Below, piece after piece: positions 1,065 to 18,323 of a stretch of DNA of 37,312 bases. The notes under the pieces are model-generated. The model worked only from the letters and a program-made list of their open reading frames with translations, was not told the origin of the DNA and ran no database searches. The DNA is from an uncultured Lachnospiraceae bacterium (GTDB lineage: Bacteria > Bacillota > Clostridia > Lachnospirales > Lachnospiraceae): NCBI GenBank assembly GCA_902767015.1, contig CACXFV010000100.1, positions 1 to 37,312 of the forward strand, read 5' to 3'. Made by a program: the position numbers and the translations under genes. Each line of letters begins with the position of its first letter. Position 1 is the stretch's first letter.

Positions 1065-1090
1065 TATGATATTCCTGAATGGAGAGGAAC

Positions 1091-1795: not shown

Positions 1796-1798
1796 GTT

Positions 1799-1852
1799 AA
1801 ACACAAAGAAAGTTTAAAGCAAACTGACTGTTTCAACTTTCTTTGTGTTTTT
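1799..1852 (+). terminator. Rho-independent terminator after the response regulator
   Basis: A perfect 15-bp stem (1800-1814 with 1835-1849) encloses a 20-base loop and runs into a T-rich tail (GTGTTTTTCTTT). It separates the transporter/regulator transcript from the ABC transporter genes. Confidence 0.9.
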
Positions 1853-1947
1853 CTTTACCATTTCTTAAACTTTTTTTTGCGTTTATTTTATCACTGATGA
1901 TTATACTATTAATTGTCAAAGGAAAGTGAGGATTTAGAGGCTGGGGA

Positions 1948-1958
1948 GTCGATACGAC
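1948..1958. promoter_or_regulatory. Short dyad upstream of the ABC transporter
   Basis: GTCG-ATA-CGAC is an 11-base inverted repeat in the gap between the terminator and the ABC ATPase gene. It could be an operator for the neighbouring response regulator, but it is short and I see only one copy. Confidence 0.2.
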
Positions 1959-2030
1959 ACATTTTCAGATAATATGTTGATTTACGACAAATTATGATAA
2001 ATTGAATTAAAAAAAGAAACGAGGTCAAAT

Positions 2031-2957: not shown

Positions 2958-3041
2958 AGAGAGGAACTTTGTGCCTGTGCGTTACCGGTCATGAATGTTA
3001 AATCTTAAATGTAGTAATGTAGCGCAGAAAAGAGGAAAGTG

Positions 3042-3869
3042 ATGTTTAGATATATCAAAATGGATTTGTATAAGTTATTGAAAAGTAAATTTTTCTATAT
3101 ATGCATGATTGTATTTCTGGCATTGATTGCACTATCTGTAGTGGAGATAAGAGACATAGAGAAGGATGTTCTGGCGGGGAGAGAGGTGCAGATAAGCGAC
3201 TCAGACACGTATTATACTACCGGAATAGGACCTAATGCGTATAAGGTTGTAGGAGATGGAATCAATCTTAAAAATTTGATAAATATGACATATGGTGGGA
3301 ATATGATGTTACTTATGGCACTGATTACATTAGTACTGTTGTTATGTAGTGATTATTCCGCCGGATATATCAAAAATACAATTGTGATTCCAAAATACAG
3401 ATGGTATACGAACATATCAAAGATCGTGTCGGCATTTATCATTATGACGGCGGAAAATATTCTTGCTGTTTTCTCGTATTTATGGTGCATCAAATTTTAT
3501 TTTAAATCAGCTGCCATAGGGGAGGTTAAAGGATTGGGGCAATATCTGGCAGTAGAGATGATTCTTTATCTCGGACTTGCCGCATTATTTATTTTTGTGT
3601 GTGATTTGACACAAAGTAAAGCCACAGGCATATCGTTAGGAGTTCTGGTGTCATGCCAATTGGTGGGAACACTGATAATGGTATTGATAGGAGAAGTATT
3701 TAATATAAAGCCAAAAACAACAGTGAAATTGATAATATCATTTGTTCAGTCCGATTTGATGGCAGGGATGTCGCGGAGTGTGTGTAAAGAAGCATTGATT
3801 TTAGGAGGCGTGGCGCTACTTGTGTACACTACGTTTGCCAATATTGTTGTCAGTAAGAAAGATTATTAG
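3042..3869 (+). CDS. ABC-2 type permease, first copy
   Basis: The protein has 275 residues and about six membrane segments. It begins with a short cytosolic stretch and a first helix (FFYICMIVFLALIAL), followed by an outward loop with several acidic residues. The segment IKNTIVIPKYRWYTNISKIV recurs nearly unchanged in the next gene, as does the C-terminal NIVVSKKDY, so the two permeases are tandem paralogues that probably form a heterodimer. I chose ATG 3042 because AGAGGA (3031-3036) sits at the right distance; a GTG at 3039 is less likely. The gap to the ATPase gene is about 84 bases, with no terminator seen. Confidence 0.85.
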   Translation: MFRYIKMDLYKLLKSKFFYICMIVFLALIALSVVEIRDIEKDVLAGREVQISDSDTYYTTGIGPNAYKVVGDGINLKNLINMTYGGNMMLLMALITLVLLLCSDYSAGYIKNTIVIPKYRWYTNISKIVSAFIIMTAENILAVFSYLWCIKFYFKSAAIGEVKGLGQYLAVEMILYLGLAALFIFVCDLTQSKATGISLGVLVSCQLVGTLIMVLIGEVFNIKPKTTVKLIISFVQSDLMAGMSRSVCKEALILGGVALLVYTTFANIVVSKKDY

Positions 3870-3929
3870 GTAAAATTGAAATTACATATCGTTAAGTATT
3901 ACAGGAAACTTGAAATTGGAGAGATAAAA

Positions 3930-4844
3930 ATGTTAAACTATATAAGAATGGATTTGTTTAAAATATTCAGAAGCCGTGCATTCATTATATGTACACTCTG
4001 CTTTATGTTGCTCAATTATGCCACCATTGTCATCATAAAAAATCGTTTGGAGAATAAAGCTTACGCACAGTCTGAAGAGATAATATATGATGATGAGAAT
4101 ATAGGGGAAATAGAAGATGTAGATAATATGGGAGAGATGGAGGATGACGAACAGGGAGTGGCAGTGATGACGGGAGTGTCTGTACAGACATCAGCTGCCG
4201 TAGCTCATGATGGAAATCTTTTGTATTGTGTAGAGACTTTATATAATGGGGGTATTTTATTCTTGTTCCTGACGTTAATCATCATTATTGTTGTATGTGA
4301 TGATTTTGCAACTGGATTTATCAAAAATACGATTACAATTCCAAAATACAGGTGGTATGTTAATATTTCTAAATTAGTGGGAGCATTTTTGGTATTTCTA
4401 TTTGAAAATATTGTTGGAATTTTGATGTTTGCATTTGCAATTGGATTTACAGATTTCTCTGAAAATGCTACTATAGGAGGTATGAAGGATATTGTTAAAA
4501 TGATAAGATACCTATCCGTTCAGGCAGTGTTTGCGCTTAGTATCATGGCGATTATTATTTGGATTGCTGATGTGACAAACAGTAAAGTGGTTTCCATCAT
4601 CATAAGTGTACTTGTGGTGTTTGGTGTCTTTGAGGGATTGTTTCTTGCGATTGCAGCAGGTCCTTTAAAAGTTGACAGTGATAGCGTTTTGAAGCTGATG
4701 AAATGGATGCCGATGAATGCAAGTTACAGTGTCATGGTATCTGATCCTGCAGGTATGATGCTAAAGTCGGCAGGATCAGGCTTGATATGGTTTATCGTAT
4801 TTATGATATTGTCGAATATAGTGATCAGTAAGAAAGATATATAA
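3930..4844 (+). CDS. ABC-2 type permease, second copy
   Basis: This 304-residue membrane protein is paralogous to the upstream gene. It shares the N-terminal YIRMDLFKIFRSR pattern, the FIKNTITIPKYRWYVNISK segment and the C-terminal NIVISKKDI. It differs by an acidic insert in the first extracytoplasmic loop (residues about 45-75, rich in Asp and Glu). A longer reading frame opens at 3876, but TTGGAGAG at 3916-3923 favours the ATG at 3930, which also aligns the N-terminus with the first copy. Six membrane segments are expected. It likely pairs with the first copy around the shared ATPase. Confidence 0.85.
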   Translation: MLNYIRMDLFKIFRSRAFIICTLCFMLLNYATIVIIKNRLENKAYAQSEEIIYDDENIGEIEDVDNMGEMEDDEQGVAVMTGVSVQTSAAVAHDGNLLYCVETLYNGGILFLFLTLIIIIVVCDDFATGFIKNTITIPKYRWYVNISKLVGAFLVFLFENIVGILMFAFAIGFTDFSENATIGGMKDIVKMIRYLSVQAVFALSIMAIIIWIADVTNSKVVSIIISVLVVFGVFEGLFLAIAAGPLKVDSDSVLKLMKWMPMNASYSVMVSDPAGMMLKSAGSGLIWFIVFMILSNIVISKKDI

Positions 4845-4935
4845 AGAATAATAAGAAAATTATAATTGCTCAAAAAATAACGAACATTTTTTTGGAGTTT
4901 TTTAATATAAGAGATTTTCATGGGAGGGGCTGGGT

Positions 4936-5880
4936 ATGTTATTGAAGATTATATGCATTTTGAGCTGTTTGCTCACATTTTTAAGTACAGTTTCATTATT
5001 TTTATACAAGCGGCAGGTGAAATCAATCTGCCGCCAAATTTGTTTTCTGAATGATAATAACTCTAATATAGAGATTACAAAGGATATCAATTCTAATGAG
5101 ATATGTGAGCTGGTAGATACTTTAAATGAGATGCTTACGATTTTCAGAGATGAGAGAGTTAAAATGAAGGAAAAGGATGCTAAGCTTAAAGAAATAATAA
5201 CTAATATATCTCATGATATCAGAACACCCCTTACTTCATTAAATGGCTATTTTGACCTTCTTGGTCAGGCAGACGATCATGAAGAATACCAGAGATATAC
5301 GGGAATTATGAAAGAGAGAATTGAATGCTTAAAGGAAATGCTTGAGCAGTTGTTTACCTATGTGAAGCTGCAAAATGATGAATATCAGTTTGAATATGAA
5401 GAATTTGATGCCTGCAAAGAATTATGCAGTATTCTTGTGGGATTTTATGAGGAGTTCCATATAAGAGGGATAAAGCCGCAGATAGAAGTACCGGATGAAG
5501 CTGTTTTTATGAATCTGAATAAGCTGGCATTCAGAAGAATATTTGAAAATATTATCAAAAATTCTATTGAACACGGAAAGAGATATTTTGAGATAAGGCT
5601 CGTAAGACAGCCGGGAGGCAGTGACATACAAAAGGGGAAAGCAGAAGAACATCATAAAATCAAGATTGTTGTTAAAAATGATATATCACAAGAATTAAAT
5701 AATGGAGAAGCGATAGACATAGACAGAGTTTTCGAAAGATTCTATAAGGCTGACAGGTCGCGTAACAGAAACTCTACCGGATTGGGATTATATATTGCAA
5801 GAGATATGGTACTTAAGATGCAGGGGAATATTATGGCTGAACAGGAAGGAGAATTGTTCGTCATTACGACGGTTTTATAG
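4936..5880 (+). CDS. Sensor histidine kinase, small single-helix type
   Basis: The 314-residue protein has an N-terminal membrane helix (about residues 2-23), no large extracellular sensor, a short linker, then a HisKA domain with His93 in NISHDIRTPLTSL. The ATPase domain shows the N box (FENIIKNSIEHG) and G2 box (STGLGLYIARDM). GGGAGGGG precedes the ATG. Kinases without an extracellular domain next to ABC exporters often read transporter activity instead of binding a ligand directly (known for Bce-like systems). Its response regulator is probably the one at 1091-1795, on the far side of the transporter genes. Confidence 0.9.
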   Translation: MLLKIICILSCLLTFLSTVSLFLYKRQVKSICRQICFLNDNNSNIEITKDINSNEICELVDTLNEMLTIFRDERVKMKEKDAKLKEIITNISHDIRTPLTSLNGYFDLLGQADDHEEYQRYTGIMKERIECLKEMLEQLFTYVKLQNDEYQFEYEEFDACKELCSILVGFYEEFHIRGIKPQIEVPDEAVFMNLNKLAFRRIFENIIKNSIEHGKRYFEIRLVRQPGGSDIQKGKAEEHHKIKIVVKNDISQELNNGEAIDIDRVFERFYKADRSRNRNSTGLGLYIARDMVLKMQGNIMAEQEGELFVITTVL

Positions 5881-6132: not shown

Positions 6133-9100
6133 ATGAAAAAATCTGTAAAAGTAATTGCGGGATATGCACTGTCAGCAGTACTGACAGTGACGAATATATC
6201 TATGACAATGCTTACACCGTCGGGATTCGGTACAGGAGTGGTTTATGCGGCAGAAGATGGGAATTTTACCTATAAGGCAGGTGACTCTTCTTATAACTGT
6301 GAAGTATTGGCAGATGGAACAGTATCTGTTTTGGCGTATGAAGGGACAGAGAGTATTCTTGTGATACCGGATGAAATAGATGGCAGGGCAGTGACAGCCA
6401 TTGAACAGTGTGCCTTTATGGAGAACGAAGATATTAGTGAAGTGGTAATACCTGCCACCATCAATACAATAGGCGGTTATGCCTTTGCAAAATGTTCCGG
6501 TTTACAAAGAGTTGTCATTCAGGCAGGACAGGTAGGAATAGGCAGAAGAGCTTTTTATGATTGTGCCGGTCTGCAGGATATTATTTTCACAGATTCAGTA
6601 CCGAAGGCAGGCTTGCTGGGGGTATCGGGCTCGTCAGAGATGACAGTATATTATAATCCGGAGAAGGGAGATTGGCAGGAGTACATAGAGTTTAACAGTG
6701 ATGTGCAATGGCTGGAGTATCATGGAGTGTATGAGCTTTCCGGTAGACTGGCATTGACAGTTGAGGATGTTACGGTAAAGTATTTTTTGAGTGAAAGTCA
6801 GCATAATCTGTTGCTCAATGCCGCGAAGCTGACGGAAGAAGACAGCAGCTACCAAAGGATGGAGGAAGTATTGGAGAAGCAGGGATTCCATCTTTCGGAT
6901 ATCAAGAGTATGTTGTATGATATTAATTTATCTGATGCGGAGGGGAATATCGTAAAAAGTGAGACGGGGGTTGAATTACAGATTGCACTGCCAAAAGAGC
7001 TTCGTGGTCAGGAGTATCGGTTATATCGTCTGAATGAGAAAGGTGAACTGGAGTTACTGCAGATGATTGATATTACCAAACAGCAGGTGCCTGAAGAGGA
7101 AAGCACCGGAGAGACCGAAAGTGGACAGGAGGCGGAAAGCAGCGAAGGGGATAGTACCGATGAAACCGAAAGCTCTGATGTGATAGGAGATGAAGATAGT
7201 GAAGATAGTGAAGGGGCAGATGTCACTGATGAAGCTGATACCACAGACAATCAGGCGGAGGCAGAGAGCGTAGAAAGTGAAAGTGCGGGTAAGTCTTTTA
7301 ACAGTTCTTATATGTCAGGAAGCAAATCTTCAGGATACGACGAAGCTGAACAATACGACAGATTTATCTGTCAGCTGGAGGAGCTTGGTACATTTGTCAT
7401 CACAGTGAATCAGATTTTGCCGGCTTATGAACTTTCAGAAGATGATTTGAAAGACAATAAAACCTTTTATACGGCAGCAGGCGGCATCAATGATGCCAAT
7501 CCGCTTGTCAGAGCTAACAGCATGGCGGAGACACAGTGGCAGGGAGTTTATAGCAGACAGATTGAGCTGCCGGCATATGACGAGACAGATGAACAGAGCA
7601 ATGTTTTTCAGTTGTATAAAATAGACAGTGATACTGTTGAAGATGGAGGCAGAAGTGCACAGCTTTGTCTTGCAACAGAGCAGTTTGGTGCTAACCAGAC
7701 AGTTTTCAGGGTGGAGAATGAAGAAGCGGTTATCGCGGAACTTTACTATGACAGCAGTACGGGTGCGGTGATTCTACTTGATGAAGAGCAAAATCCGGTG
7801 CCATATCACTTTAGTTGGGTAGGAGACCGGGAGAGCAGACAGTTTACGACAGTGGAGGAATTTGCGGTATGTGGCTATGAGTGGCAGGCGGAACATCTTC
7901 TGACACAAGACATTCCTAATATTGCCCTTGCAGTGAGTGAATTGTATGAGAAAATAACGGGAAAAACAATGGAATTTGACAAAGAGAAATATGCCGGACA
8001 GGAATATCAGTATACGAGTGGCGATGCAGTGTATACTTATCAGATACAGGATATTGATTCCGTTATCATTACTGCATACAAAGGTTCGGAGACTGAAGTG
8101 ACAGTGCCGGATAAAATAAATGGCATTCAGGTGGAAGAAATCGGAGAGAGAGCCTTTTATGAGTGTGCAGATATTACTTCCATAGTGTTGCCGGAGGGTA
8201 TCGTAAAGGTTGGCAATGCTGCTTTTTCCGGTTGTAGTAAGCTGGAGAAAGTTGATATGCCGGACAGTGTGGAAAGCATAGGAGGTTTTGCCTTTAAGGG
8301 ATGCGGCGATTTAAAAGAAATGATATTGCCGGAGGGCATCAGAAGTATTGAAGGAAGTACCTTTTCAGGCTGTAGCAGTCTGGAAAAAATCAATATTCCG
8401 GATACGGTGGAAAGCATAGGAAAGCAGGCATTTTATTCCTGCAGCAGCCTGAAAACAATAGACATACCGGAAAGTGTCACGCGAATTGATGCCGGCGCTT
8501 TCTGGGAATGCAGCGGTATTGAGAGGATAGAGATACCGGAGGGTGTGACAAGCATAGAGGATTATGAATTTTGGGGATGCAGTAATCTGGAGAAGATAAT
8601 ACTGCCGGAAAGTATTGAGAGTATCGGATATGGTGCATTTTGCCGCTGTGCTAATCTGGCAGCCTTAGAGATACCGGAGAATGTGAGCAAAATTGGCGAT
8701 TATGCTTTTTATGGCTGTGATGGATTGAAGGTAATTTATGCCTTGTGTGACAGTACGGCAATTAATCAGTTTTCAATGAGCAGTGATGACGTTACCGTGT
8801 ATTATAATCCGGCGCGGAGCGACTGGACAGACATTATTGCGGAGCATGCCGGCTATAGATGGATTAAATTTGCAGAGAATGATGGTGTGATAGTAGAATA
8901 TACGGAGGAGGACTTTGAAGGAATTATTTCTTTGGAGGTCACAGAGATTGACATCACCTCTGATAAGTTTGCGGCAGTTATGGATATTTTTCAAAATATG
9001 GAATTAGAATGGGAGCGTCAATGTCTGGTATATGAAATTCATGTGACAGATCATGATGGCAATGAGCTCCATTTTGACAAGGAACTGCAGGTGAAGCTGA

Positions 9101-9474
9101 AGGAGACGGATGACAGGAAAGCTTCCTATGATAATGTATACCGGATAACACAGGAGGAAGAACTAAAGGATTTATTTGCCGTACAGGCAGGAGGAAAGCT
9201 TCAGTTTAAGACGGATACATTTGGGGTGATGGTTATCTCTGAAAAGATGCTCCTTAAGGATACTACTTTATATGGTGACCTTAACGGAGATGGAGATATC
9301 AACTCAGCGGATGCTGTACTGATGAAAAAATATCTGGCAGGATATCGTGAGGAAGCGGCAGATGAGAGGGCATATGATGTCAACTATGATGGAGAAATCA
9401 CCAGTGCAGATGCTGTATTATTATTGAAATATCTCGCTGGATATGATATCAAAATAGGAAGAAATGCAAAATAA
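6133..9474 (+). CDS. Secreted BspA-type leucine-rich repeat protein with C-terminal dockerin
   Basis: The protein has 1113 residues. A signal peptide spans about 1-40 (cleavage near VVYAAEDG). A first, short block of LRR_5/BspA repeats lies at about 50-150 (for example IEQCAFMENEDISEVVIPAT). An acidic Ser/Glu/Thr/Asp linker covers about 315-385. A second, longer block of about eight BspA repeats lies at about 650-870 (repeating IPDTVESIGKQAFYSCSSL). The C-terminal 68 residues (from about 1046) are a two-repeat dockerin with calcium-binding loops DLNGDGDINSAD and DVNYDGEITSAD, each followed by KYLAGY. After each LRR block comes a VYYNP..DW segment and a similar domain of 100-150 residues, so the protein looks internally duplicated. 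BspA repeats usually bind host or bacterial surface proteins. The dockerin should dock it to one of the cohesins encoded downstream (inference). Confidence 0.9.
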   Translation: MKKSVKVIAGYALSAVLTVTNISMTMLTPSGFGTGVVYAAEDGNFTYKAGDSSYNCEVLADGTVSVLAYEGTESILVIPDEIDGRAVTAIEQCAFMENEDISEVVIPATINTIGGYAFAKCSGLQRVVIQAGQVGIGRRAFYDCAGLQDIIFTDSVPKAGLLGVSGSSEMTVYYNPEKGDWQEYIEFNSDVQWLEYHGVYELSGRLALTVEDVTVKYFLSESQHNLLLNAAKLTEEDSSYQRMEEVLEKQGFHLSDIKSMLYDINLSDAEGNIVKSETGVELQIALPKELRGQEYRLYRLNEKGELELLQMIDITKQQVPEEESTGETESGQEAESSEGDSTDETESSDVIGDEDSEDSEGADVTDEADTTDNQAEAESVESESAGKSFNSSYMSGSKSSGYDEAEQYDRFICQLEELGTFVITVNQILPAYELSEDDLKDNKTFYTAAGGINDANPLVRANSMAETQWQGVYSRQIELPAYDETDEQSNVFQLYKIDSDTVEDGGRSAQLCLATEQFGANQTVFRVENEEAVIAELYYDSSTGAVILLDEEQNPVPYHFSWVGDRESRQFTTVEEFAVCGYEWQAEHLLTQDIPNIALAVSELYEKITGKTMEFDKEKYAGQEYQYTSGDAVYTYQIQDIDSVIITAYKGSETEVTVPDKINGIQVEEIGERAFYECADITSIVLPEGIVKVGNAAFSGCSKLEKVDMPDSVESIGGFAFKGCGDLKEMILPEGIRSIEGSTFSGCSSLEKINIPDTVESIGKQAFYSCSSLKTIDIPESVTRIDAGAFWECSGIERIEIPEGVTSIEDYEFWGCSNLEKIILPESIESIGYGAFCRCANLAALEIPENVSKIGDYAFYGCDGLKVIYALCDSTAINQFSMSSDDVTVYYNPARSDWTDIIAEHAGYRWIKFAENDGVIVEYTEEDFEGIISLEVTEIDITSDKFAAVMDIFQNMELEWERQCLVYEIHVTDHDGNELHFDKELQVKLKETDDRKASYDNVYRITQEEELKDLFAVQAGGKLQFKTDTFGVMVISEKMLLKDTTLYGDLNGDGDINSADAVLMKKYLAGYREEAADERAYDVNYDGEITSADAVLLLKYLAGYDIKIGRNAK

Positions 9475-9531
9475 GAATAAAAGTTGTCAAAGAGACAACA
9501 GTATTTGGCAAAAAAAAGTGATTGTCATATA

Positions 9532-9560
9532 TTGCAAAATATATTGAAGTATTATAGAAT
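9532..9560 (+). promoter_or_regulatory. Candidate promoter of the cohesin-dockerin adaptor gene
   Basis: TTGCAA (9532-9537) and TAGAAT (9555-9560) are exactly 17 bases apart, about 58 bases before the start codon. The adaptor may therefore be transcribed separately from the LRR gene. Confidence 0.5.
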
Positions 9561-9618
9561 ATTTGTATCCTGTAGCTGATTCTATGACAGGCAGGAACAG
9601 GGAAAGGAGGAAAGATGT

Positions 9619-10899
9619 ATGAAGAATGTCACAAGGCTTTTATCAGTACTGATGGCATTTGTAATCAGTGTTATGACGATGGGAACCATTGCCGTAACAG
9701 ATGTCAGTGAAGTGATTGCTGCGGATTATGATGTGGTACTGAGCTTGTCTGCTGATACTTCAAATGTAAAGGCAGGAGATATACTGTCAGCTACAATGAT
9801 GATTGAAAGCAATTCAGGATTAGCGGGGTTAACGGCGAGAATCCATTATGATACGGATGTGTTAAGCCTTATGTCCGTAGAGCCGGCAGAGGGAAGTGCC
9901 TATGCTGGTGCCGTTTTATTTCCGGTTGCTGATTTATTAGAGGACAAGACTAAGACCTTGGATGAGGCGGCAGCAGGTATCGTCGGTTTTTCTTACGGAG
10001 AAGCTGTGAGTAAGACGGATACAGGTAAGATTATGGTAGCAAAGTTCTCGGTAAAGCAGAATGCTAAGCCGGGAGAGAGTAGAATTGATTTTGTGTATAC
10101 GGATGCTTCTGATTTTAATGCGAATAAGAGGTCGGTGAATGCCGCCGGAATGGTTTTTAAGGTTGAGGCATCAGCGGATGTTCAACCGGAGAGCGATAAC
10201 GCTGAAGAGGCAAAAGCAGCAAAAGAGGTAACGGAGCTTGTTGATGGTCTGTTAAAGGGTGATGAAGTCAAGGGAATTGACGAGGCACTTGCCGGAGAGA
10301 TGAAGGAGGCAGCAGAGGACTATAAGACGATTAAAGTAGTATTGCGGAAGAATTTCATTAATGAAGCGGAAGTGGATACTTCCGATGTTGGTCTGATTCG
10401 TGCCGGGTTATCAGAGGAGCAGACTATTGCCGGTTACTATGATGTACAGCTTGGTGTCAGAATTGGTGGCAGCGAAGTGGGAAGTATTTCAGAGTTAAAT
10501 CATGATATTGCCTTATCGCTTGAGATACCTTCCGGCTTGCCGGTATTAGAAGAAGGAAAGTTCAGAAAGTATAGTGTGGTTAGCATACAGGATGGCAGTG
10601 CGGAAGTATTGCCCGCAACAGCATCGGACAGAGAGATTACTTTTACAACACATCATTTTGGTACATATGCAGTGGTGTATGAAGTGACAGATGGTATTTT
10701 GGGTGATACTAATGGAGACGGTGCCGTTAATATTGCTGATGCCTTACAGATATCACAATATGACGCCGGCTTGATTGAATTAAACAGCGGTCAGCTTGCA
10801 CTGGCAGATGTGAATGGAGACGGAGAGGCGAATATTGCAGATGCATTGATGATATCACAGTATGATGCCGGCTTAATCACATCAATTGGCGCAAGATAA
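9619..10899 (+). CDS. Scaffoldin-like adaptor: cohesin plus dockerin
   Basis: The protein has 426 residues. A signal peptide covers about 1-34, then a cohesin domain about 36-182 with the pattern VKAGDILSATMMIESNSG, GLTARIHYDTDVLSL and GFSYGEA. A middle region of about 170 residues includes a possible all-beta domain ending FTTHHFGTYAVVYEV. The C-terminal 67 residues (from about 360) form a dockerin with two intact loops (DTNGDGAVNIAD and DVNGDGEANIAD), each followed by ISQYDAGLI, not the KYLAGY seen in the neighbours. Carrying both modules, it can bridge a dockerin cargo to a second cohesin, as adaptor scaffoldins do in cellulosomes. A GGAAAGGAGG site lies upstream of ATG 9619. No catalytic domain is visible. 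Confidence 0.88.
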   Translation: MKNVTRLLSVLMAFVISVMTMGTIAVTDVSEVIAADYDVVLSLSADTSNVKAGDILSATMMIESNSGLAGLTARIHYDTDVLSLMSVEPAEGSAYAGAVLFPVADLLEDKTKTLDEAAAGIVGFSYGEAVSKTDTGKIMVAKFSVKQNAKPGESRIDFVYTDASDFNANKRSVNAAGMVFKVEASADVQPESDNAEEAKAAKEVTELVDGLLKGDEVKGIDEALAGEMKEAAEDYKTIKVVLRKNFINEAEVDTSDVGLIRAGLSEEQTIAGYYDVQLGVRIGGSEVGSISELNHDIALSLEIPSGLPVLEEGKFRKYSVVSIQDGSAEVLPATASDREITFTTHHFGTYAVVYEVTDGILGDTNGDGAVNIADALQISQYDAGLIELNSGQLALADVNGDGEANIADALMISQYDAGLITSIGAR

Positions 10900-10907
10900 A
10901 AAAGTAG

Positions 10908-10936
10908 TTGCAATATGTTGACAATTGTATTAAAAT
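10908..10936 (+). promoter_or_regulatory. Candidate promoter of the wall-anchored cohesin gene
   Basis: TTGCAA (10908-10913) and TAAAAT (10931-10936) are 17 bases apart, starting 9 bases after the upstream stop. The leader to the ATG at 11080 would be about 135 bases, AT-rich, with no obvious structure. Confidence 0.45.
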
Positions 10937-11079
10937 GAAAGTACTTTGCCGGATATTTAATAATTTATTAATTTTTAACAGCTATCTGGTTAAGGTCGTG
11001 CAGGCTATGTGGGTTGCACAGAGAAAAATAGTATGTTATTTAATTTAACATAAATAAAGATATATAGGAGATGAAAGAT

Positions 11080-12708
11080 ATGAAGTTAAAGAAACTTTTA
11101 GGAGTGATTCTTGCCGGTGCTTGTGTAGTTTCAGGTCTTGCCGGTACAGGAGAGAAAGTTTCCGCAGCAGAAGATGTTAATTATAAGCTGACGGAGACGG
11201 TAGGCGACGGAGAGGTAGTCCTTACTTTGAATTTGATTGGCGGAGCCGGTATTGGTGCCGGTAACTACACGATTGTTTATGATACAGATGTATTCTCATT
11301 AGTATCAGCAAAGAAGGGTAGTGCAGAGACAGATCTTGGTTCGGTTAATTCAAAGAAGGCCGGACAGATAGTAGGTAACTTCGCATTTAACGAAGGATGT
11401 ACAGGAGAGGCCACAGATGTTCTTACTGCAACATTAAAGCTTGAGAAGGGTTCGTTCGACAAATCAGATATCTCTTTCGAAAGTCTTATGCTTTATAATG
11501 TAGAGAGTGTAAAGCTTGGCGATCAGACAACAATAACACCTATCATCGTTGTTGAATGTAGTCATGCAAAGACACATGATGTAGAGAAAGTACCGGCAAC
11601 ATGTTCACAGGAAGGTAGTGTTGAGACTGTATGTGATGTTTGCGGTGAGGTTGTAGAGACCACAAGTGTTTCGAAGACAGATCACAAGTGGGATGAAGGA
11701 AAAGTGACAACAGATCCAAAGTGTGAAAAAGAAGGTGTAAAGACATTTACATGTACTGAATGTGGTGCAACAAAGACAGAGCCTGTAGCGGCACTTAAAC
11801 ATGATTGGGATGAAGGAAAAGTGACAACAGATCCAAAGTGTGAAAAAGAAGGTGTAAAGACTTTCACATGTAAAAATGATCCGGAGCACACCAAGACAGA
11901 GCCTGTAGCGGCACTTGGACATAAGTGGGAATCATATGAAATCGTAAAGGCTGAGACAGAAGAGGAAGACGGCGAGATTAAGAGAACATGTTCTGTATGT
12001 GGTGAGACAATCACAGAGAAAATTCCTAAGCTTGAAGCAAAGAACTTTGAGTTAAAGGATGCAGAAGGCAAGGATAGCGAAGCAGAGTGCAAGGTTGGCG
12101 ATACACTTGAACTCAAGGCAGAAGTTTTCACAACAGCAACAGGTGCTGAAGATCAGATTGGTGATATCAGATATGTGCCTGCTTCTTACAAGATTGGTGA
12201 TGAAGTAACCGCATTTGAAGGAACAGATTATACAATTAAGTTTACACCGGCAACAGCAGGTGAGCAGACAATTGCTGTTCAGTATACAAGAGAAGTATTT
12301 GGTGCAACAGGTTGGGTAGCAGATCCGGAGACTTATTCATTTGACACAGTTGTAACAGCTACTGAGAAGGCTGCAGACAACGATAAAACAGATAACAACA
12401 GCGGTAATACAACAGGCAAAGATGATGACAATGCAGCAACAGACAACAAAAATGGCAATACAGCAAAAGACAACAAGGGTGGCAATGCAGCAACAGACAA
12501 CAAAAATGGCAATACAGCAACAGACAACAAGGGTGGCAATGCAGCAACAGACAACAAGGGTAATGGCACCAACAATGGCAAGACTGCTGATACTGCAAAG
12601 ACAACACCTAAGACAGGTGACAGTGTAGCTGTGATGATGATTTTAGTAGCACTTCTCGGTGTTTCCGGAGCAACTGTATTGGTTGTTAGAAAGAGAAGAG
12701 AGTTCTAA
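11080..12708 (+). CDS. Cell-wall-anchored cohesin protein with Cys-rich repeats and sortase tail
   Basis: The protein has 542 residues. The signal peptide ends near KVSA/AED (29/30). A divergent, compact cohesin-like domain follows at about 32-158 (VVLTLNLIGGAG, GNYTIVYDTDVFSLVSAKKG). Next come three or four Cys-rich repeats with CxxC pairs (CDVCGE, CTECGA, CSVCGE) at about 160-310, a beta-sandwich-like region about 315-430, an Asn/Thr/Lys/Gly linker about 440-505, and a sortase sorting signal PKTGD at about 510-514 with a hydrophobic helix and RKRREF tail. The protein should be covalently attached to peptidoglycan. ATG 11080 is preferred because AGGAG (11066-11070) is too close to the ATG at 11071. 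As the only wall-linked cohesin, it is the natural anchor of the complex. Its cohesin is unlike the other two, which suggests a different dockerin partner (inference). Confidence 0.85.
   Translation: MKLKKLLGVILAGACVVSGLAGTGEKVSAAEDVNYKLTETVGDGEVVLTLNLIGGAGIGAGNYTIVYDTDVFSLVSAKKGSAETDLGSVNSKKAGQIVGNFAFNEGCTGEATDVLTATLKLEKGSFDKSDISFESLMLYNVESVKLGDQTTITPIIVVECSHAKTHDVEKVPATCSQEGSVETVCDVCGEVVETTSVSKTDHKWDEGKVTTDPKCEKEGVKTFTCTECGATKTEPVAALKHDWDEGKVTTDPKCEKEGVKTFTCKNDPEHTKTEPVAALGHKWESYEIVKAETEEEDGEIKRTCSVCGETITEKIPKLEAKNFELKDAEGKDSEAECKVGDTLELKAEVFTTATGAEDQIGDIRYVPASYKIGDEVTAFEGTDYTIKFTPATAGEQTIAVQYTREVFGATGWVADPETYSFDTVVTATEKAADNDKTDNNSGNTTGKDDDNAATDNKNGNTAKDNKGGNAATDNKNGNTATDNKGGNAATDNKGNGTNNGKTADTAKTTPKTGDSVAVMMILVALLGVSGATVLVVRKRREF
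11689..11861 (+). repeat. 56-bp perfect direct repeat within the Cys-rich region
   Basis: A 56-base sequence at 11689-11744 recurs exactly at 11806-11861 (117-base offset, 39 codons). A shorter block encoding KTEPVAAL also recurs (from about 11773 and 11893). Nucleotide-level identity indicates recent in-frame duplication of a protein repeat. Confidence 0.85.
12430..12564 (+). repeat. Five tandem 27-bp coding repeats (wall-spanning linker)
   Basis: Five 27-base units run from 12430 to 12564 and alternate two forms, encoding NAATDNKNG-type and NTA(K/T)DNKGG-type nonapeptides. Units one and three are identical. They form a hydrophilic spacer before the sorting signal, and copy number is likely to vary between strains. 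Confidence 0.85.
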
Positions 12709-12727
12709 TATTAGTATGATTTCATCA

Positions 12728-12754
12728 TTGAAGTTAAGAACAGATTAGTATAAT
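12728..12754 (+). promoter_or_regulatory. Possible promoter of the membrane-anchored cohesin gene
   Basis: TATAAT (12749-12754) is a perfect -10 match. The best upstream -35-like hexamer, TTGAAG (12728-12733), is only 15 bases away, so the promoter is uncertain. Its start point would fall almost at the base of the hairpin at 12763-12800. Confidence 0.3.
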
Positions 12755-12762
12755 TTTTAAAT

Positions 12763-12800
12763 ATAATGCAAGAGGTAAAGTTGTTTATCTCTTGCATTAT
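12763..12800 (+). terminator. 17-bp hairpin between two cohesin genes
   Basis: ATAATGCAAGAG (12763-12774) pairs with 12789-12800. The stem continues inward by one G-T pair and TAAA/TTTA to a GTTG tetraloop. The following bases (TTAAATACG) are a poor T tract, so it may be a weak terminator of the wall-anchored cohesin gene or a 5' stability hairpin of the next transcript. Confidence 0.6.
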
Positions 12801-12840
12801 TTAAATACGACAATAGCTGAATGGAGAAATGAGGATTATC

Positions 12841-13926
12841 ATGAGTATGAACATAAGCCGTCTTCAAAGAATAGTGGCGGTAATACTGACCATAGGATTG
12901 GCCTGTGTCGGTTTTGGAAAAGAAAAGTCATATGGGGCAGAAGAGCAAGTGGTGGTAAAGCTGACGGCAAGCCGGTCGGAGGTTCAGGCAGGAGAACATC
13001 TTTCCGTAACATTAGCGATTGAGCAGAATAAAGGAGTGTCCGGTCTGGTCGTAAGATTCTGCTATCCACAAGATACATTGTCACTTGTTTCTGTGAAGCA
13101 TGCGGCGGAGAGCGAATATAAGACGGCTGTGATTTTCCCTGCGCAGGACATGTTAGAAGAGGGAGCCAATCTTGATGCTACGGCAGAGGGAAGAGTCGGT
13201 TTTGCTTATGTAGAGATGAAGAATAATCAACATACCGGTGACATTGTTGTGGCAGATTTTTTGGTTAAGACAGGAGCGAAGGCAGGGGAAGCGACATTTA
13301 CCTATGAGTATCTGGATGCCTCCAATGCCGCGGGAGAAGTGTTAGAAGTATCAGGAAAAGAGGCAACCTTTCAAGTGGTTCAGACCGCTAACGACAGTTC
13401 TGGCGAAAGTAAAGCAGAGCCATCGGAACAGAAGCAGCAGTCTGTCACTGATAAAGGGAATCAAGGAAGTGAAGCGGGAAAAGCAGACAGTACAACAAAG
13501 GATATTCAAAACAGGGAAAACATGACAGAGCCGCAGGCATCCGGTGGAAACAATGATACAGAGCATAACACACTTTCACAAAGAGATGTAGTAACACAGC
13601 AGACATCGGCAGGAGAGTCGGCAGTTCACGAAAATGACAGCGGCAGCACCGGAAAAAATAACGAAAACGGAGTGAACAATGAGACTGCAAAGAACGATGA
13701 AGGAACCGGCATTACGAGTGATGGAATAGACAGTAACAAAGAGAGTATAAACGAAAAAGTAGCAGGAAAAGCGGCTGAATCGAATCATACGGCAAAAAAG
13801 TCAGGAAGAGCAGAGGGTGTTGTAGTGGGCTGTGTGGCAGTTGTGGTATTGATGGCCGGGATGATCACATATATTGTTATTAGAAAAAGAAAAATAAGTA
13901 AACCAAAGGAAGAGAACCGGGAATAA
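12841..13926 (+). CDS. Membrane-anchored cohesin protein
   Basis: The protein has 361 residues. A signal peptide ends near SYGA/EEQ (about 31-33). A cohesin domain at about 34-180 closely resembles that of the cohesin-dockerin adaptor (shared pattern VxAGxxLSxTxxIExNxG, then DTLSLVSV and GFAYVEM). A Ser/Thr/Asn/Glu/Lys-rich linker covers about 185-320. One membrane helix (about 326-347) is followed by a basic tail RKRKISKPK. There is no LPxTG-type motif, so anchoring should be in the membrane, not the wall. The TGAGG just before 12841 and the position of the signal peptide favour this ATG; an in-frame ATG exists at 12829. It offers a second surface attachment point for dockerin proteins. Confidence 0.83.
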   Translation: MSMNISRLQRIVAVILTIGLACVGFGKEKSYGAEEQVVVKLTASRSEVQAGEHLSVTLAIEQNKGVSGLVVRFCYPQDTLSLVSVKHAAESEYKTAVIFPAQDMLEEGANLDATAEGRVGFAYVEMKNNQHTGDIVVADFLVKTGAKAGEATFTYEYLDASNAAGEVLEVSGKEATFQVVQTANDSSGESKAEPSEQKQQSVTDKGNQGSEAGKADSTTKDIQNRENMTEPQASGGNNDTEHNTLSQRDVVTQQTSAGESAVHENDSGSTGKNNENGVNNETAKNDEGTGITSDGIDSNKESINEKVAGKAAESNHTAKKSGRAEGVVVGCVAVVVLMAGMITYIVIRKRKISKPKEENRE

Positions 13927-14008
13927 AAAATCAGGAATAAAAAATAGGAATAAGGACATCGCAGGCAATAGAGGATATCGCCACAGGGTGATTTTGGAGG
14001 AATTGACA

Positions 14009-15355
14009 ATGCGGAAAAAATTGGCAGGAGTATTATCATGTGCACTCATGCTGTCAGCAGGTGGACAGATTAGTTTTAACCGTTATCATGAGAATTATGT
14101 CTATGCAGAAAATAGGGTTTCTGATGTGATAGAAATCGCACAGGTAAGTGATTTTGGGAAGATACAGGATAATGTATCAGGTCATTATCAGCTTGTGGCG
14201 GACATTGACTTTAGTACTTTAGAGGATAGGGATTTACAGAGTAATGAGCAGGGGGAAGTCTATTATCCTATTACATTTGCGGGAGAATTAGATGGAAACG
14301 GACATACTGTCAAAGGGGTGGAGAGAGGATTGTTTGACAGCATTGATGCCGGGGGAAAGATTTATGATTTAGTAATTGAGGCTGATTTTGGCGGAAGTGT
14401 GCGCATGGGAAGCGAGAAAAGCGAAGAAAGTATAGAAAGCAGGATGCAGGTAAAGTATACCTGCGCCGGAAGGAATCAGGGGAGCATTCAGAATTGCAGA
14501 GTGGATTGCCGGATATCCGATATAGAGGGTGTGGAGACGGATTGTCTGTATGTGTATGGATTGTGTCAGGAAAATGAAGGAATTATCTCAGATAGTGAGG
14601 TGCATATTGAGGCAACGGCTATCAGAGGAGATATGATAGGAATGTATGTAGCAGGCATTTGTGACGTCAATGATAAGACTATAAAGAATTGCACTGCCGG
14701 ACTTCAGATATTCGAAAATGAGGCAGAGCAGATGTATGTGAGTGGTATTTGCAACAGGAATGCGTATATAGCGGCTTCGGAGGATTTATCAAAGAACCGG
14801 TCCTTTGGAACGATTACGGACTGCAGGACAGAGGGACAGGTGAAGTCCTTTGGACAGCGAGATATTGAATTTGGCGGAATTTCCATTGAAAATGATGGAA
14901 TTATCGAAAAATGTGAAAATGGGGTCAATTGTGATATCATTACTGTCTGTTCAGGGGGAATAGCAGCTAAAAACAGTGCCATGCTTCTTCGCTCTGTCAA
15001 TCATGGGGAACTGACGATAAGAGGGGAGATAGAGGGATTTGATTGTGTGATGGGAGAGATTGCAGGAAAATCAGATGGTACCATGAAGGGATGCGACAGT
15101 GATGGTAAGGTTGTGTCTGTTTTAGCAGAAGAAAAACAGCAGGTGGTGCTGATGCCCACGGAGCAAGTGTTGTATGGTGACGTTAATGGCGATGATGATA
15201 TTACGATGGAGGATGCAATACTGCTTAGGAGGGCACTTGCCGGTTATAGCACAATAGAGATAAATAAGGATTGGGGAGATATGGATCAGGACGGAGAGAT
15301 TACAAGTGCAGATGTGGTAATATTGTTGCAATACCTTGCCGGTTATTGTGTATAA
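14009..15355 (+). CDS. Secreted beta-helix (GLUG-like) protein with C-terminal dockerin
   Basis: The protein has 448 residues. A signal peptide covers about 1-32 (ending near YVYAEN). A repetitive region at about 40-370 contains FAGELDGNGHTVKGVERGLF and many turns of the form N-x-G-x-I-x-x-C, typical of GLUG or right-handed beta-helix proteins. The dockerin starts at about 388, with loops DVNGDDDITMED (the usual Gly replaced by Asp) and DMDQDGEITSAD followed by LQYLAGY. GGAGG at 13996-14000 fixes the ATG at 14009. Its beta-helix region is paralogous to that of the next gene, but it lacks the transglutaminase domain. The 22-base gap to the next gene indicates co-transcription. It is a probable adhesin-type or binding cargo; no catalytic residues were recognised. 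Confidence 0.85.
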   Translation: MRKKLAGVLSCALMLSAGGQISFNRYHENYVYAENRVSDVIEIAQVSDFGKIQDNVSGHYQLVADIDFSTLEDRDLQSNEQGEVYYPITFAGELDGNGHTVKGVERGLFDSIDAGGKIYDLVIEADFGGSVRMGSEKSEESIESRMQVKYTCAGRNQGSIQNCRVDCRISDIEGVETDCLYVYGLCQENEGIISDSEVHIEATAIRGDMIGMYVAGICDVNDKTIKNCTAGLQIFENEAEQMYVSGICNRNAYIAASEDLSKNRSFGTITDCRTEGQVKSFGQRDIEFGGISIENDGIIEKCENGVNCDIITVCSGGIAAKNSAMLLRSVNHGELTIRGEIEGFDCVMGEIAGKSDGTMKGCDSDGKVVSVLAEEKQQVVLMPTEQVLYGDVNGDDDITMEDAILLRRALAGYSTIEINKDWGDMDQDGEITSADVVILLQYLAGYCV

Positions 15356-15377
15356 AAAATAAGAATGGAGAATGCTT

Positions 15378-18323
15378 ATGAAAAAAAATTTTAGAAAAAT
15401 TTTGACAGGACTTGTCTCAGCGGTTACAATAACAGCGTTGGTACAGGTAAATACGTTATCCGGTTATGCGCAGATAACCTCCAAGTCTGCCCATATGGGG
15501 CAGAGATTATCGGCACCGGTGACAAGAGCAGCTTTGGCTGTGGATGAAATTTCAACAGTAACGGATTTTGATATGTTTGCCAATGATTATGGATATCAGG
15601 ATTTTTCTGCTTTCGATAATAAAAAGGACAGAAGGGCGCTGTATCAGGAGATTGCCCGTATAGCAGGTGATTTTTGGAACAGCAGTGCTGATTTGAACAA
15701 TGTCTATAACAATCTATATGAAATTGATTCGGTAAATTTAGCGCAATATAATCTGACATTTGATGAGGTAGTAGAGACCTACTTTGCCTTTAAGGAGGAT
15801 AACCCTATATTCTATTATCTGTCAAATGTTGTCTACATTAAGGGTGTAAAATTATATCTGTATGCCGATGCCGATTATGCGAAGGCGTCAGCCCGTAAGC
15901 AGTATCAGGAGAGTATTATTAACGGACTGAATGAGTTTATCCGCGCGACAAATGGCATGACGACAGATTTTGATATTATTCTTGAAGTACATGACATGAT
16001 CAGTGATAAAATCCAGTATGCATATCAGGCCAATGGTCAGCCGTCTAATGAAGCCTATGCACATAATATTCTGGGATATTTTGATGAAAGCTATGGGGAG
16101 GGCGTGTGCGAGTGCTATGCCCGTACGTATGCGCTGGCATTGAATCTGTTAGGAATTGAAAATGTATATGTGACAGGTGTGGCCGGTACAGAGGACCATG
16201 TATGGAATATCGTAAAATTGGATGGCAGTTATTATTATATCGATTGTACATGGGATGACGGGGGCGATAGCTATGATTATTTCCTAAAGGGAGAAAATTC
16301 TGTATTTAAGACAGATCATTTTGCTAATTCTAACCAGGCAACCGGTGTGGATTATCTTTATCCGTTGCCAAAGGTCAGTGATGGTGATTATGTGTATGAA
16401 ACAGAGAAAACGATTGAGATTGACAGTGTCAGAGATTTCAAGAGAATTGCCCTATATCCGTCAGGAAATTATCAGTTGACAGGTGATGTGGATTTTAGCA
16501 ATATTCATGTAAATAATGCCAGTATCTATCAGTATTTGAAGTTTACCTTTGATGGAATTATCAACGGGAATGGTCACATGGTCAGAGGCTTAAAGGTGGG
16601 CTTGTTCGAGACCATTGGAAGAGAGGCAGTGATTCGGAATTTATTATTGGAGGCAGATTTCAGCGGCAGTGCATGGCAGGACGGTCAGAATAAGTATGGA
16701 GCCATCAAATACGCATTGGCACAGAATAATCTGGGACTGATTGAAAAGTGCAGTGTTGATTTCTCTATGAAAGATATTGAGGGAATGGGCACCATTAGTG
16801 TCATGAATATTGGCGGATTTGTCAGAAATAATTATGGAATTATAAAGAATAGCAGTGCAGAGGTCAAATTGACAGGAAACACTTCTCAGGTTGAGCAGAT
16901 ATCACTGGGAGGCATGGTATTTAACAATTATGGAAAAGTGGATAGCTGTGAGGCAGCGATAGAGGTTAAGGACAATGACATAGAAAGACTTTTTGTAGGT
17001 GGATTCTGCGCTATGAGTATCAATGCGGATTCTATGGTAAGTAACTCCAAAGTCAGTGGTATAGTGACTTCCTATGGCAGTAATTCTATTGTTTTTGGTG
17101 GAATTGTGCCGGAAAATAATGGTATCATTGATGGCTGTGAGAGTAATGTGTCATGTAATCTTACTTCGGTTTATTCCGGCGGTATGACGGGCCTGAATCA
17201 TTTTATTGTGAAAAACTGTGTCAATCAGGGAAGGATAGCAGGGAATATATCCTATCTTGGCGGTGTTGCTGGATATAATAAAGGTGTTTTAGAGAGATGT
17301 ACCAATAGCGGAAGTATCAGCTATGGCAGCGGAAGCCAGAGCGTGGGTGGTATTACAGGAATGACAGGAACCACCTGTATTATCAGTCATTGTGAAAACA
17401 CAGGGGCGATTACAGGACAGCAGAGTGGCAGTAGTGAGATTGCTACGGGAGGAATTGTAGGAAGGGTTCCGCTCAATACCGGTAGCTCCTATGATGCTAA
17501 CCATAATCTGATTGTGACACCGGGCTATGTATTTATCAAGGATTGTAAGAATACCGGAAGTATCGGAGGCGATAATAACGGTGCCATTGCCGGCATCATC
17601 AGTGTTGCCAATAAAGAGAGTCAGGTGATTTTGAAAAATTGTACGAACACAGGAAGTATAAGTGGCAAGTCAAAGGATACATTATCCGGTGCCACCAATA
17701 TACACAGTAATGCGAAACGTACCAATGACATTTCCGTTGTGTTGATAAATAACACTGCTGCAGCTCAGGGGATTGTAACAGAAAGAAAATTGTCACACGT
17801 CAATATTGGTGAAAATCTAAAGATTGACAGTGCGGCGCAGAATCAGCGTGTATATTATTCTGCTGTCAATTCTACCTATGCCGGCGGTACTGTGAAAGGC
17901 ACATCCGCAGGAAATGATGTATTAGTCATTTATGATACAAATGGAAACTTTGATTATGAGCTAATCGTAGTGGATGCCGAAAAGCATACATGGAATGAGG
18001 GTATCGTAATGAGAGGTGCTGACCGTACACATTTTGGTGTGATAGAATATACCAGTGCAGAGGGGGATGCCATCAAGTATGAGATGATTTCAGAAGACCC
18101 TGATGTGGAGGATGCGACAAAAGTATTGTATGGTGATGCCAATCAGGACGGAGTTGTTGATACACAGGATGGGGTGATATTAAAGAAATATCTGGCGGGT
18201 TACAACGATATTCAGATTGATGTGGAATTATGTGATGTAGATGATGATGGCAGTATCACCAGTGCTGACGTTGTGCTGGTGGCGAAATATCTGGCCGGCT
18301 ATCCTGTAGCCATCAGAAGATAG
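15378..18323 (+). CDS. Secreted transglutaminase-like plus beta-helix protein with dockerin
   Basis: The protein has 981 residues. A signal peptide covers about 1-31. An N-terminal helical region leads into a transglutaminase-like (papain-fold) domain at about 175-315 with a complete candidate triad: Cys244 in GEGVCECYA, His274 in TEDHVWNIV and Asp289 in YYYIDCTWDD. GLUG-like beta-helix repeats follow at about 350-830 (FDGIINGNGHMVRGLKVGLF, then many GGI/GGV turns). The dockerin begins near 916, with loops DANQDGVVDTQD and DVDDDGSITSAD and two KYLAGY motifs. TGGAG at 15366-15370 favours ATG 15378 over 15372. Bacterial members of this fold act as proteases, peptidoglycan or peptide hydrolases, or amide crosslinkers; which applies here cannot be told. 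It is the only clearly enzyme-like member of the cluster. Confidence 0.88.
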   Translation: MKKNFRKILTGLVSAVTITALVQVNTLSGYAQITSKSAHMGQRLSAPVTRAALAVDEISTVTDFDMFANDYGYQDFSAFDNKKDRRALYQEIARIAGDFWNSSADLNNVYNNLYEIDSVNLAQYNLTFDEVVETYFAFKEDNPIFYYLSNVVYIKGVKLYLYADADYAKASARKQYQESIINGLNEFIRATNGMTTDFDIILEVHDMISDKIQYAYQANGQPSNEAYAHNILGYFDESYGEGVCECYARTYALALNLLGIENVYVTGVAGTEDHVWNIVKLDGSYYYIDCTWDDGGDSYDYFLKGENSVFKTDHFANSNQATGVDYLYPLPKVSDGDYVYETEKTIEIDSVRDFKRIALYPSGNYQLTGDVDFSNIHVNNASIYQYLKFTFDGIINGNGHMVRGLKVGLFETIGREAVIRNLLLEADFSGSAWQDGQNKYGAIKYALAQNNLGLIEKCSVDFSMKDIEGMGTISVMNIGGFVRNNYGIIKNSSAEVKLTGNTSQVEQISLGGMVFNNYGKVDSCEAAIEVKDNDIERLFVGGFCAMSINADSMVSNSKVSGIVTSYGSNSIVFGGIVPENNGIIDGCESNVSCNLTSVYSGGMTGLNHFIVKNCVNQGRIAGNISYLGGVAGYNKGVLERCTNSGSISYGSGSQSVGGITGMTGTTCIISHCENTGAITGQQSGSSEIATGGIVGRVPLNTGSSYDANHNLIVTPGYVFIKDCKNTGSIGGDNNGAIAGIISVANKESQVILKNCTNTGSISGKSKDTLSGATNIHSNAKRTNDISVVLINNTAAAQGIVTERKLSHVNIGENLKIDSAAQNQRVYYSAVNSTYAGGTVKGTSAGNDVLVIYDTNGNFDYELIVVDAEKHTWNEGIVMRGADRTHFGVIEYTSAEGDAIKYEMISEDPDVEDATKVLYGDANQDGVVDTQDGVILKKYLAGYNDIQIDVELCDVDDDGSITSADVVLVAKYLAGYPVAIRR

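Follow-up and report, generated by a model that had tools for sequence, protein, structure and literature searches.

The subject of this work is a cluster of six genes for cohesin and dockerin proteins in a stretch of 37,312 nucleotides, hereafter the window, from an uncultured Lachnospiraceae bacterium (GCA_902767015.1, contig CACXFV010000100.1, positions 1-37,312 of the forward strand). The genome to which it belongs, G000, consists of 168 contigs and is 96.7% complete. The six genes are consecutive open reading frames (ORFs) on one strand and code for proteins P0001 to P0006, with the following features:

6133..9474, + strand: P0001, predicted secreted BspA-type leucine-rich repeat (LRR) protein of 1113 amino acids with a C-terminal class B dockerin, putative cargo (LRR_5 257 bits, Dockerin_1 56 bits)
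7402..7989, + strand: module of P0001 common to two other class B cargo proteins, on contigs C141 and C88 (37-46% identity by alignment)
9271..9435, + strand: class B dockerin of P0001 (61.4 bits in the genome search)
9619..10899, + strand: P0002, putative monovalent adaptor of 426 amino acids with alpha cohesin, middle domain and class A dockerin (Pfam, alignment)
9727..10167, + strand: alpha cohesin of P0002 (Pfam Cohesin PF00963, 26.4 bits, cut-off 24.1)
10699..10863, + strand: class A dockerin of P0002 (47.7 bits)
11071..12708, + strand: P0003, putative wall-anchor scaffoldin of 545 amino acids with beta cohesin, CxxC-type repeats (by eye), unique domain and sortase signal
11173..11565, + strand: beta (divergent) cohesin of P0003 (PF00963, 22.0 bits in the genome search, below the cut-off of 24.1)
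12022..12375, + strand: domain of P0003 found in just one other of 9 genus genomes, G008 (47% identity, E 9.5e-30), used for the orthologue call
12607..12699, + strand: predicted sortase anchor of P0003 (LPXTG-like, PKTGD; TIGR01167 20.8 bits, cut-off 15.9; PF00746 19.9 bits, cut-off 20)
12829..13926, + strand: P0004, predicted membrane-anchored alpha cohesin protein of 365 amino acids
12943..13380, + strand: alpha cohesin of P0004 (43% identity to the P0002 cohesin)
13816..13881, + strand: predicted C-terminal transmembrane helix of P0004, followed by a basic tail (hydropathy maximum of 2.84 in the last 60 residues)
13988..15355, + strand: P0005, predicted secreted, probably beta-helical protein with a class B dockerin, putative cargo (Pfam, homology to P0006)
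15173..15337, + strand: class B dockerin of P0005 (46.2 bits)
15372..18323, + strand: P0006, predicted secreted transglutaminase-like and probable beta-helix protein of 983 amino acids with a class B dockerin, putative cargo (Pfam; NF045980 58.8 bits, cut-off 450)
15948..16244, + strand: transglutaminase-like domain of P0006 with Cys, His and Asp in place (PF01841 29.4 bits; aligned with PDB 9crn)
18129..18293, + strand: class B dockerin of P0006 (45.8 bits)

An earlier note on this DNA had counted four dockerin proteins and three cohesin proteins in the cluster, with signal peptides on all six, and these counts hold. The four dockerins score 56.0 (P0001), 42.8 (P0002), 42.2 (P0005) and 41.0 bits (P0006), all above the Pfam cut-off of 22.9 for the type I dockerin (Dockerin_1, PF00404). 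P0002, P0003 and P0004 carry one cohesin each, P0002 together with its dockerin. Simple hydropathy gives an N-terminal hydrophobic stretch after basic residues in 6 of 6 proteins, indicating probable secretion; P0005 starts with GTG and its real start may lie a few codons further in.

The putative cargo is largely as the same note had described it. The LRR_5 repeats of P0001 and the Transglut_core domain of P0006 score over their Pfam cut-offs. The Cys, His and Asp of P0006 that align to 9crn are presumably its catalytic residues. BspA-type LRR proteins are often adhesins. The module that P0001 shares with the C141 and C88 proteins has no significant PDB or Pfam relative. The beta-helix assignment stays a deduction from sequence: P0005 gives a weak, sub-threshold match to PF05342 and is homologous to residues 327-643 of P0006 (32% identity over 344 amino acids). 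The absence of glycoside hydrolases and carbohydrate-binding modules (CBMs) over cut-off extends to all six cluster proteins in Pfam and NCBIfam scans, in which low-scoring NCBIfam CelK rows cover the dockerin stretch only.

Among the window cohesins only that of P0002 passes the Pfam cut-off. The C-terminus of P0002 is its dockerin and the protein shows no anchor of its own; together with three paralogues encoded elsewhere in G000 (40-52% identical) it combines one cohesin and one dockerin in a single protein, as expected for a ScaC-type adaptor. P0004 has no Pfam cohesin match and aligns to P0002 with 41% identity over 198 amino acids (E 6e-31). P0003 joins a single cohesin to an LPXTG-type signal in a genome with two sortase genes, an organization of the ScaE type. 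Its cohesin is not listed by hmmscan even at E<=10 and hhalign relates it to the alpha group with E 1.5e-4 and probability 52. The worry that such modules are unrelated Ig-like domains was checked for P0003 with an AlphaFold model built on a four-row alignment (predicted local distance difference test, pLDDT, 75; predicted template modelling score, pTM, 0.71): 50 of the 50 PDB matches listed are cohesin entries or the scaffoldin chains 4fl4 and 3kcp, the best with E 2.9e-6. The full-length model of P0002 has a mean pLDDT of 43.9, exceeding 70 in only part of the cohesin region, and its best Foldseek match is the ScaC cohesin of Ruminococcus flavefaciens (5lxv), in a list that mixes cohesins and other beta proteins. 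The cohesin jelly-roll fold is thus predicted for P0003 by its model and for P0002 by a low-confidence one.

The cluster is not self-contained, contrary to what the earlier note had proposed. Elsewhere G000 codes for another 16 dockerin proteins and no fewer than four additional proteins with a cohesin, and two of the three additional P0002-like adaptors adjoin a class B dockerin gene of their own. Pfam lists six cohesin matches in the genome, four of them over cut-off; with the other searches there are at least seven cohesin proteins, possibly eight. An alpha profile finds five, namely P0002, P0004 and the adaptors on contigs C141, C27 and C94. The others are the beta cohesin of P0003 and the partner of a class C dockerin on C120. 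A 327-amino-acid protein on C116 with a C-terminal membrane helix (by eye) is counted only as a possible second beta cohesin. The weak match of a C72 protein to the P0003 cohesin (E 0.046) was rejected; the protein looks like a protease of the SpoIVB type.

The 20 dockerins of G000 above the Pfam cut-off (one more is partial and below it) were aligned with 24 of the genus and fall into three codes: A with 13 members (the four adaptors and nine other proteins), B with six and C with one. Code A has [I/V]A at positions 10-11 of both halves in 13 of 13 cases and its halves are near-repeats, alike at 15-21 of 23 positions. Code B, found six times in G000 and twice in the congener G008, ends both halves in AG[Y/W] (8/8), and code C reads KRHIL. 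Pairwise identities set A sharply apart, A-A values (0.51-0.73) not overlapping with A-B values (0.27-0.45). B is looser (B-B 0.39-0.77) and overlaps the A-B range; A-C and B-C identities reach at most 0.38 and 0.40, respectively. A tree of 34 dockerins from three genomes places A in a single group (support 98/95) and B on one side of a branch (94/87); a single change suffices for group A in 98% of bootstrap trees and for group B in 100%. The tree rests on 63 columns, with a tool warning that few forks are resolved. Nine rows of genome G007 with a related code, B', group with B. Four rows dropped for length or score were read afterwards: one of G008 (a half dockerin on C44) is B, two of G007 are B'-like and one of G004 is class C-like. 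Codes A and B differ at positions 10-11, 17-18 and 22-23. The predicted recognition residues of R. albus dockerins lie at positions 10, 11, 17 and 18 according to PMC4081043, and by analogy these positions may decide specificity in G000.

Comparison with G008 suggests which modules meet. Among the 9 genus genomes, alpha cohesins are present in two, G000 and G008, and these are also the genomes with code B dockerins. G008 has one alpha cohesin (locus L019), a class C pair and four dockerin matches: two full B, one broken B half and one class C. The full B dockerins are borne by a protein with an LRR-like end (by eye) and by a CAP-domain protein. No code A is found among these four matches, and no beta cohesin match in G008 either; code A and the beta cohesin (P0003, possibly C116) are found only in G000 among the 9 genomes, a match to the P0003 cohesin in G002 at E 0.37 being taken as chance. 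L019 is the orthologue of P0003, with 34% identity end to end, 47% over the domain absent from the other genus genomes examined, and a PKTGD-type tail (PF00746 16.8 bits, below the cut-off of 20). Its cohesin is nevertheless of the alpha group, with 47% identity to that of P0002 and only 28% to that of P0003 in the four-row alignment.

Since G008 has alpha and B and no A was found there, alpha should meet B in that genome if either is functional, which leaves code A and the beta cohesin as presumed partners in G000. Gene order is consistent with the alpha-B pairing. Three of the four adaptors (C141, C27 and the window) adjoin code B genes and the fourth lies at a contig end; the chance that three dockerins drawn from the 15 that are neither adaptor nor class C would all be B is 20/455 = 0.04. 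Adjacency is a reasonable guide: in all 9 genus genomes the orthologues of the class C dockerin gene and of its cohesin partner are neighbours. The cohesin and the dockerin of one adaptor would accordingly differ in partner, as judged from the co-occurrence of the groups. A reversed pairing looks improbable to us. In it code A would bind alpha, linking adaptors into chains with one another and with P0004, and the beta cohesin of P0003 would take the code B cargo. Every adaptor does have an alpha cohesin and a code A dockerin, making self-chaining possible, but the alpha cohesin of G008, a genome with B and neither A nor beta found, would then be left partnerless.

Our preferred reading, held with moderate confidence, is that a cohesin-dockerin network with two tiers and two codes displays non-enzymatic and processing proteins rather than plant-fibre enzymes, and that the cluster encodes its cell-surface end. 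The presence of the modules, their order, the codes, orthology and co-occurrence are read directly from the sequence, as are two cohesin groups and two main codes in one genome. On this basis the proteins would be secreted and assemble by calcium-dependent docking. Sortase would attach P0003 to the wall, where its beta cohesin would hold the code A proteins, namely P0002, its three paralogues and nine others. Each adaptor would in turn hold one code B cargo protein by its alpha cohesin, chosen among P0001, P0005, P0006 and three more encoded elsewhere, and P0004 could hold the same cargo directly at the membrane with no adaptor. G008 would represent a simpler one-tier form, with the same anchor body, an alpha cohesin and no code A found. 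Judged from cargo types only, the most likely job of the network is surface attachment or remodelling, which we state with low confidence.

The alpha cohesins and code B are rare. At E<=1e-6 alpha cohesins are found in 2 of 397 sampled family genomes, strongly only in G000 and weakly in the other; neither family search matched G008, which was evidently outside this sample. With a code B profile the six G000 dockerins reach 106-115 bits, against a best of 60.5 among the scored matches listed from the other 396 genomes, with at most 15 candidates scored per genome; some dockerin is found by this profile at E<=1e-6 in 75 of the 397. In the 29 family loci that were read, each from a different genome, the dockerins have motifs other than those of code B; one is A-like. 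A search of genome contigs with P0002 alone gave no match and with the alpha alignment one record, the Lachnospiraceae metagenome-assembled genome RUG13154, whose match is the same as the G008 locus. The prefix RUG denotes a rumen genome; the bacterium of the window is a gut organism, probably of the rumen. Plasmids gave no match to P0002 and viral contigs none to the alpha cohesins.

Several points weigh against the two-tier reading. The beta-A pairing rests on elimination, and a cohesin overlooked by every search would break it. The A-like motif (DIADALL..RYDAGF) belongs to a dockerin of another genus (genome G100, L073:809-2581), whose cohesins were searched by the alpha profile only. The genus sample is 9 genomes, two of them less than 90% complete, and G007 has B' dockerins grouping with B and no alpha cohesin, so that co-occurrence falls to 2 of 3 if B' equals B. 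The C116 protein came up at no better than E 0.01, shares 22% identity with P0003 and lacks a Pfam cohesin match. Three of the four rows in the alignment behind the P0003 model are alpha cohesins and may pull it towards a cohesin fold. Finally, most LRR-borne dockerins of R. flavefaciens did not bind the cohesins tested, as reported in PMC5301203. This last point, together with the position of P0003 below and P0004 outside Pfam Cohesin, would suit modules that have lost mutual binding and persist as inherited Ig-like and calcium-binding tails. We give this explanation very little credence: the 13 code A dockerins keep 51-73% identity on proteins of differing domain content, with both halves alike, and this conservation suggests selection on a binding face.

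The non-cellulosomal character of the system, proposed in the earlier note, was examined through the remaining dockerin proteins, since many dockerin-bearing carbohydrate-active enzymes would have made the cluster part of a cellulosome. The 16 outside the cluster were all scanned with Pfam, seven and the class C protein also with NCBIfam, and three and the class C core were compared with the PDB. They carry LRR_5, Ig_3, Big_2, Flg_new, cadherin-like and SH3 domains, CHB_HEX_C_1 with Fn3_assoc (two proteins) and sub-threshold CBM26. A plant-polysaccharide hydrolase is found in 0 of the 20 above-cut-off dockerin proteins by these scans (Pfam for all 20, NCBIfam or PDB for some). Every cohesin protein found has a single cohesin, with no multi-cohesin scaffoldin among them, and no CBM, CBM3 included, is seen in P0002-P0004 (E<=0.1) or the three other adaptors (E<=0.01). 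Complete ORFs code for 14 of the dockerin proteins; four others begin at contig ends (C141, 619 amino acids; C88; C121; C147, 171 amino acids) and two have doubtful starts (C94, 316 amino acids; C64, with further frames upstream), so hidden enzymes are possible in these six.

Two contigs deserve separate mention. On C64 (L040:817-7246) the code A dockerin protein of 1410 amino acids has ORFs in other frames directly upstream, a possible sign of gene disruption or misassembly. On the 4.3-kb contig C61, the sub-threshold dockerin fragment at the contig end (L012:4252-4314) reads as code A, possibly a fourteenth A protein, and an LRR_5 and ChW protein is encoded on the same contig.

The truncated genes bear on another explanation, that the network is a glycan-binding station, a reduced relative of amylosomes or cellulosomes whose displayed surface proteins bind starch or glycans and cooperate with carbohydrate enzymes that are free or truncated. 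CBM26-like stretches of 25.2 and 27.9 bits (cut-off 28.1) in the code B cargo of C141 and C88 (1585 amino acids) point in this direction, as do a G007 dockerin protein with CBM26 over cut-off (30.3 bits), the two CHB_HEX_C_1 and Fn3_assoc proteins and the four genes cut at contig ends. The window cargo has no CBM over cut-off, however, a profile of the C141/C88 stretch that takes in the CBM26-like part retrieves nothing from the PDB at E<=1, and the scans above found no plant-polysaccharide glycoside hydrolase with any of the 20 dockerins. We consider such a station unlikely, though the least so of the alternatives. Enzyme-bearing dockerins do occur in the family: among ten family dockerin proteins scanned, some cut by locus ends, three have a glycoside hydrolase-type domain (GH5; GH63/trehalase-like; glucosaminidase).

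The class C dockerin protein of G000 belongs to a separate conserved pair. Its core resembles the SagB peptidoglycan glucosaminidase (NCBIfam 67 bits, model cut-off 425; PDB autolysin, E 1e-16), a glycoside hydrolase of peptidoglycan, not of plant fibre. On C120 (L010:6172-10643) this glucosaminidase with C-terminal dockerin adjoins the gene of a cohesin and cadherin-like protein with a membrane helix, an arrangement present in 9 of 9 genus genomes. Of the 29 family loci, 10 have a relative of the cohesin protein, 9 one of the glucosaminidase (beyond its dockerin) and 8 both. Cohesin and dockerin in this pair appear to tether a wall hydrolase, a non-cellulosomal use that looks widely conserved. 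The loci tied to it are:

L017, L020, L021, L024, L027, L029, L030, L031; L059, L061, L062, L063, L065, L067, L068, L074: loci tied to the class C pair

G007 has a parallel set of proteins (L013, L014, L015, L016) with LRR_5 and Transglut_core cargo plus CotH, C-type lectin and CBM26, code B' and no alpha cohesins. At L013:2977-4497 a cohesin-like frame (20.5 bits, below cut-off) is followed by a dockerin frame in the same reading frame, with one in-frame TGA between them.

Around the cluster, positions 1079-5880 immediately upstream on the same strand code for a response regulator, ABC transporter proteins and a histidine kinase. About 9 kb downstream, 27194-29185 codes for a 663-amino-acid protein with a Cthe_2159 carbohydrate-binding domain (PF14262, 247 bits) and no dockerin match at E<=1e-5. 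Promoter-like sites (52, against 34.4 expected) and terminator-like sites (12, against 6.0) were not used to call operons. A synteny check against the loci gathered outside G000 (E<=1e-8), many of them short contigs or stretches, gave no common locus. The counterparts seen there are cohesin and dockerin proteins, LRR and transglutaminase stretches and one response-regulator match; the DUF4317 protein and the glycosyltransferase of the window have none.

Taken further, the two-tier reading would make G000 and G008 a record of the birth of a second tier. The anchor would be the same in both except for its cohesin, alpha in G008 and of the divergent beta type in G000. There a new code A would serve 13 proteins, four of them adaptors with the old alpha cohesin; the adaptor tier would have arisen together with the change in the cohesin of the anchor, for surface display and with no role in fibre digestion. 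We put this forward as a tentative scenario, somewhat less probable than its opposite. If true, it would set the cohesin-dockerin principle apart from fibre digestion, and the pair of genomes would make testable how a scaffold gains an adaptor tier and a new code while keeping the old one. The set is small genome-wide, with 20 dockerins, seven or eight cohesins and three codes, so that its entire binding matrix is measurable. The private codes A and B could also be new orthogonal building blocks for designer protein assemblies.

Within G000 the nearest comparison is the class C pair, likewise a non-cellulosomal pair of the cell envelope, which differs from the main network by a private third code, a single cargo and conservation through the genus and beyond. 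OlpA of Clostridium thermocellum is a surface protein with one cohesin and S-layer homology (SLH) repeats. P0004 resembles it as a single-cohesin surface protein that could take cargo dockerins directly, and differs in having a transmembrane helix, not SLH repeats. R. flavefaciens FD-1 has, like G000, monovalent cohesin-dockerin adaptors (ScaC), a single-cohesin sortase anchor (ScaE) and several dockerin codes. PMC2930009 and PMC5301203 describe in FD-1 a putative operon of four transglutaminase-like dockerin proteins and one LRR dockerin protein, and the suggestion of the authors that some group 4 dockerin interactions may structure the cell surface. FD-1 has, however, 222 dockerins, many on glycoside hydrolases, carbohydrate esterases and CBM proteins, and the multi-cohesin scaffoldins ScaA and ScaB, whereas G000 has 20 and neither a plant-fibre enzyme nor a two-cohesin protein was found there. 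The section of PMC11557425 on scaffoldin-containing microbes treats presumed non-cellulolytic microbes, unlikely to make conventional cellulosomes, such as Limihaloglobus and Lachnoclostridium sp. MSJ-17. The latter has few scaffoldins; most have one cohesin (one has two), and two end in a transmembrane helix. Up to 39 dockerin proteins are given for it; dockerin proteins run in tens, with a single lignocellulose-type glycoside hydrolase among them. A two-code adaptor tier, an exchanged anchor cohesin and an LRR/transglutaminase cluster go unmentioned in that section, and among the titles and abstract openings listed by a literature search none describes this cluster or an exchange of the anchor cohesin. 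Nearly all of the individual elements are known from R. flavefaciens; what differs in G000 appears to be their use as a two-tier, non-cellulosomal surface scaffold.

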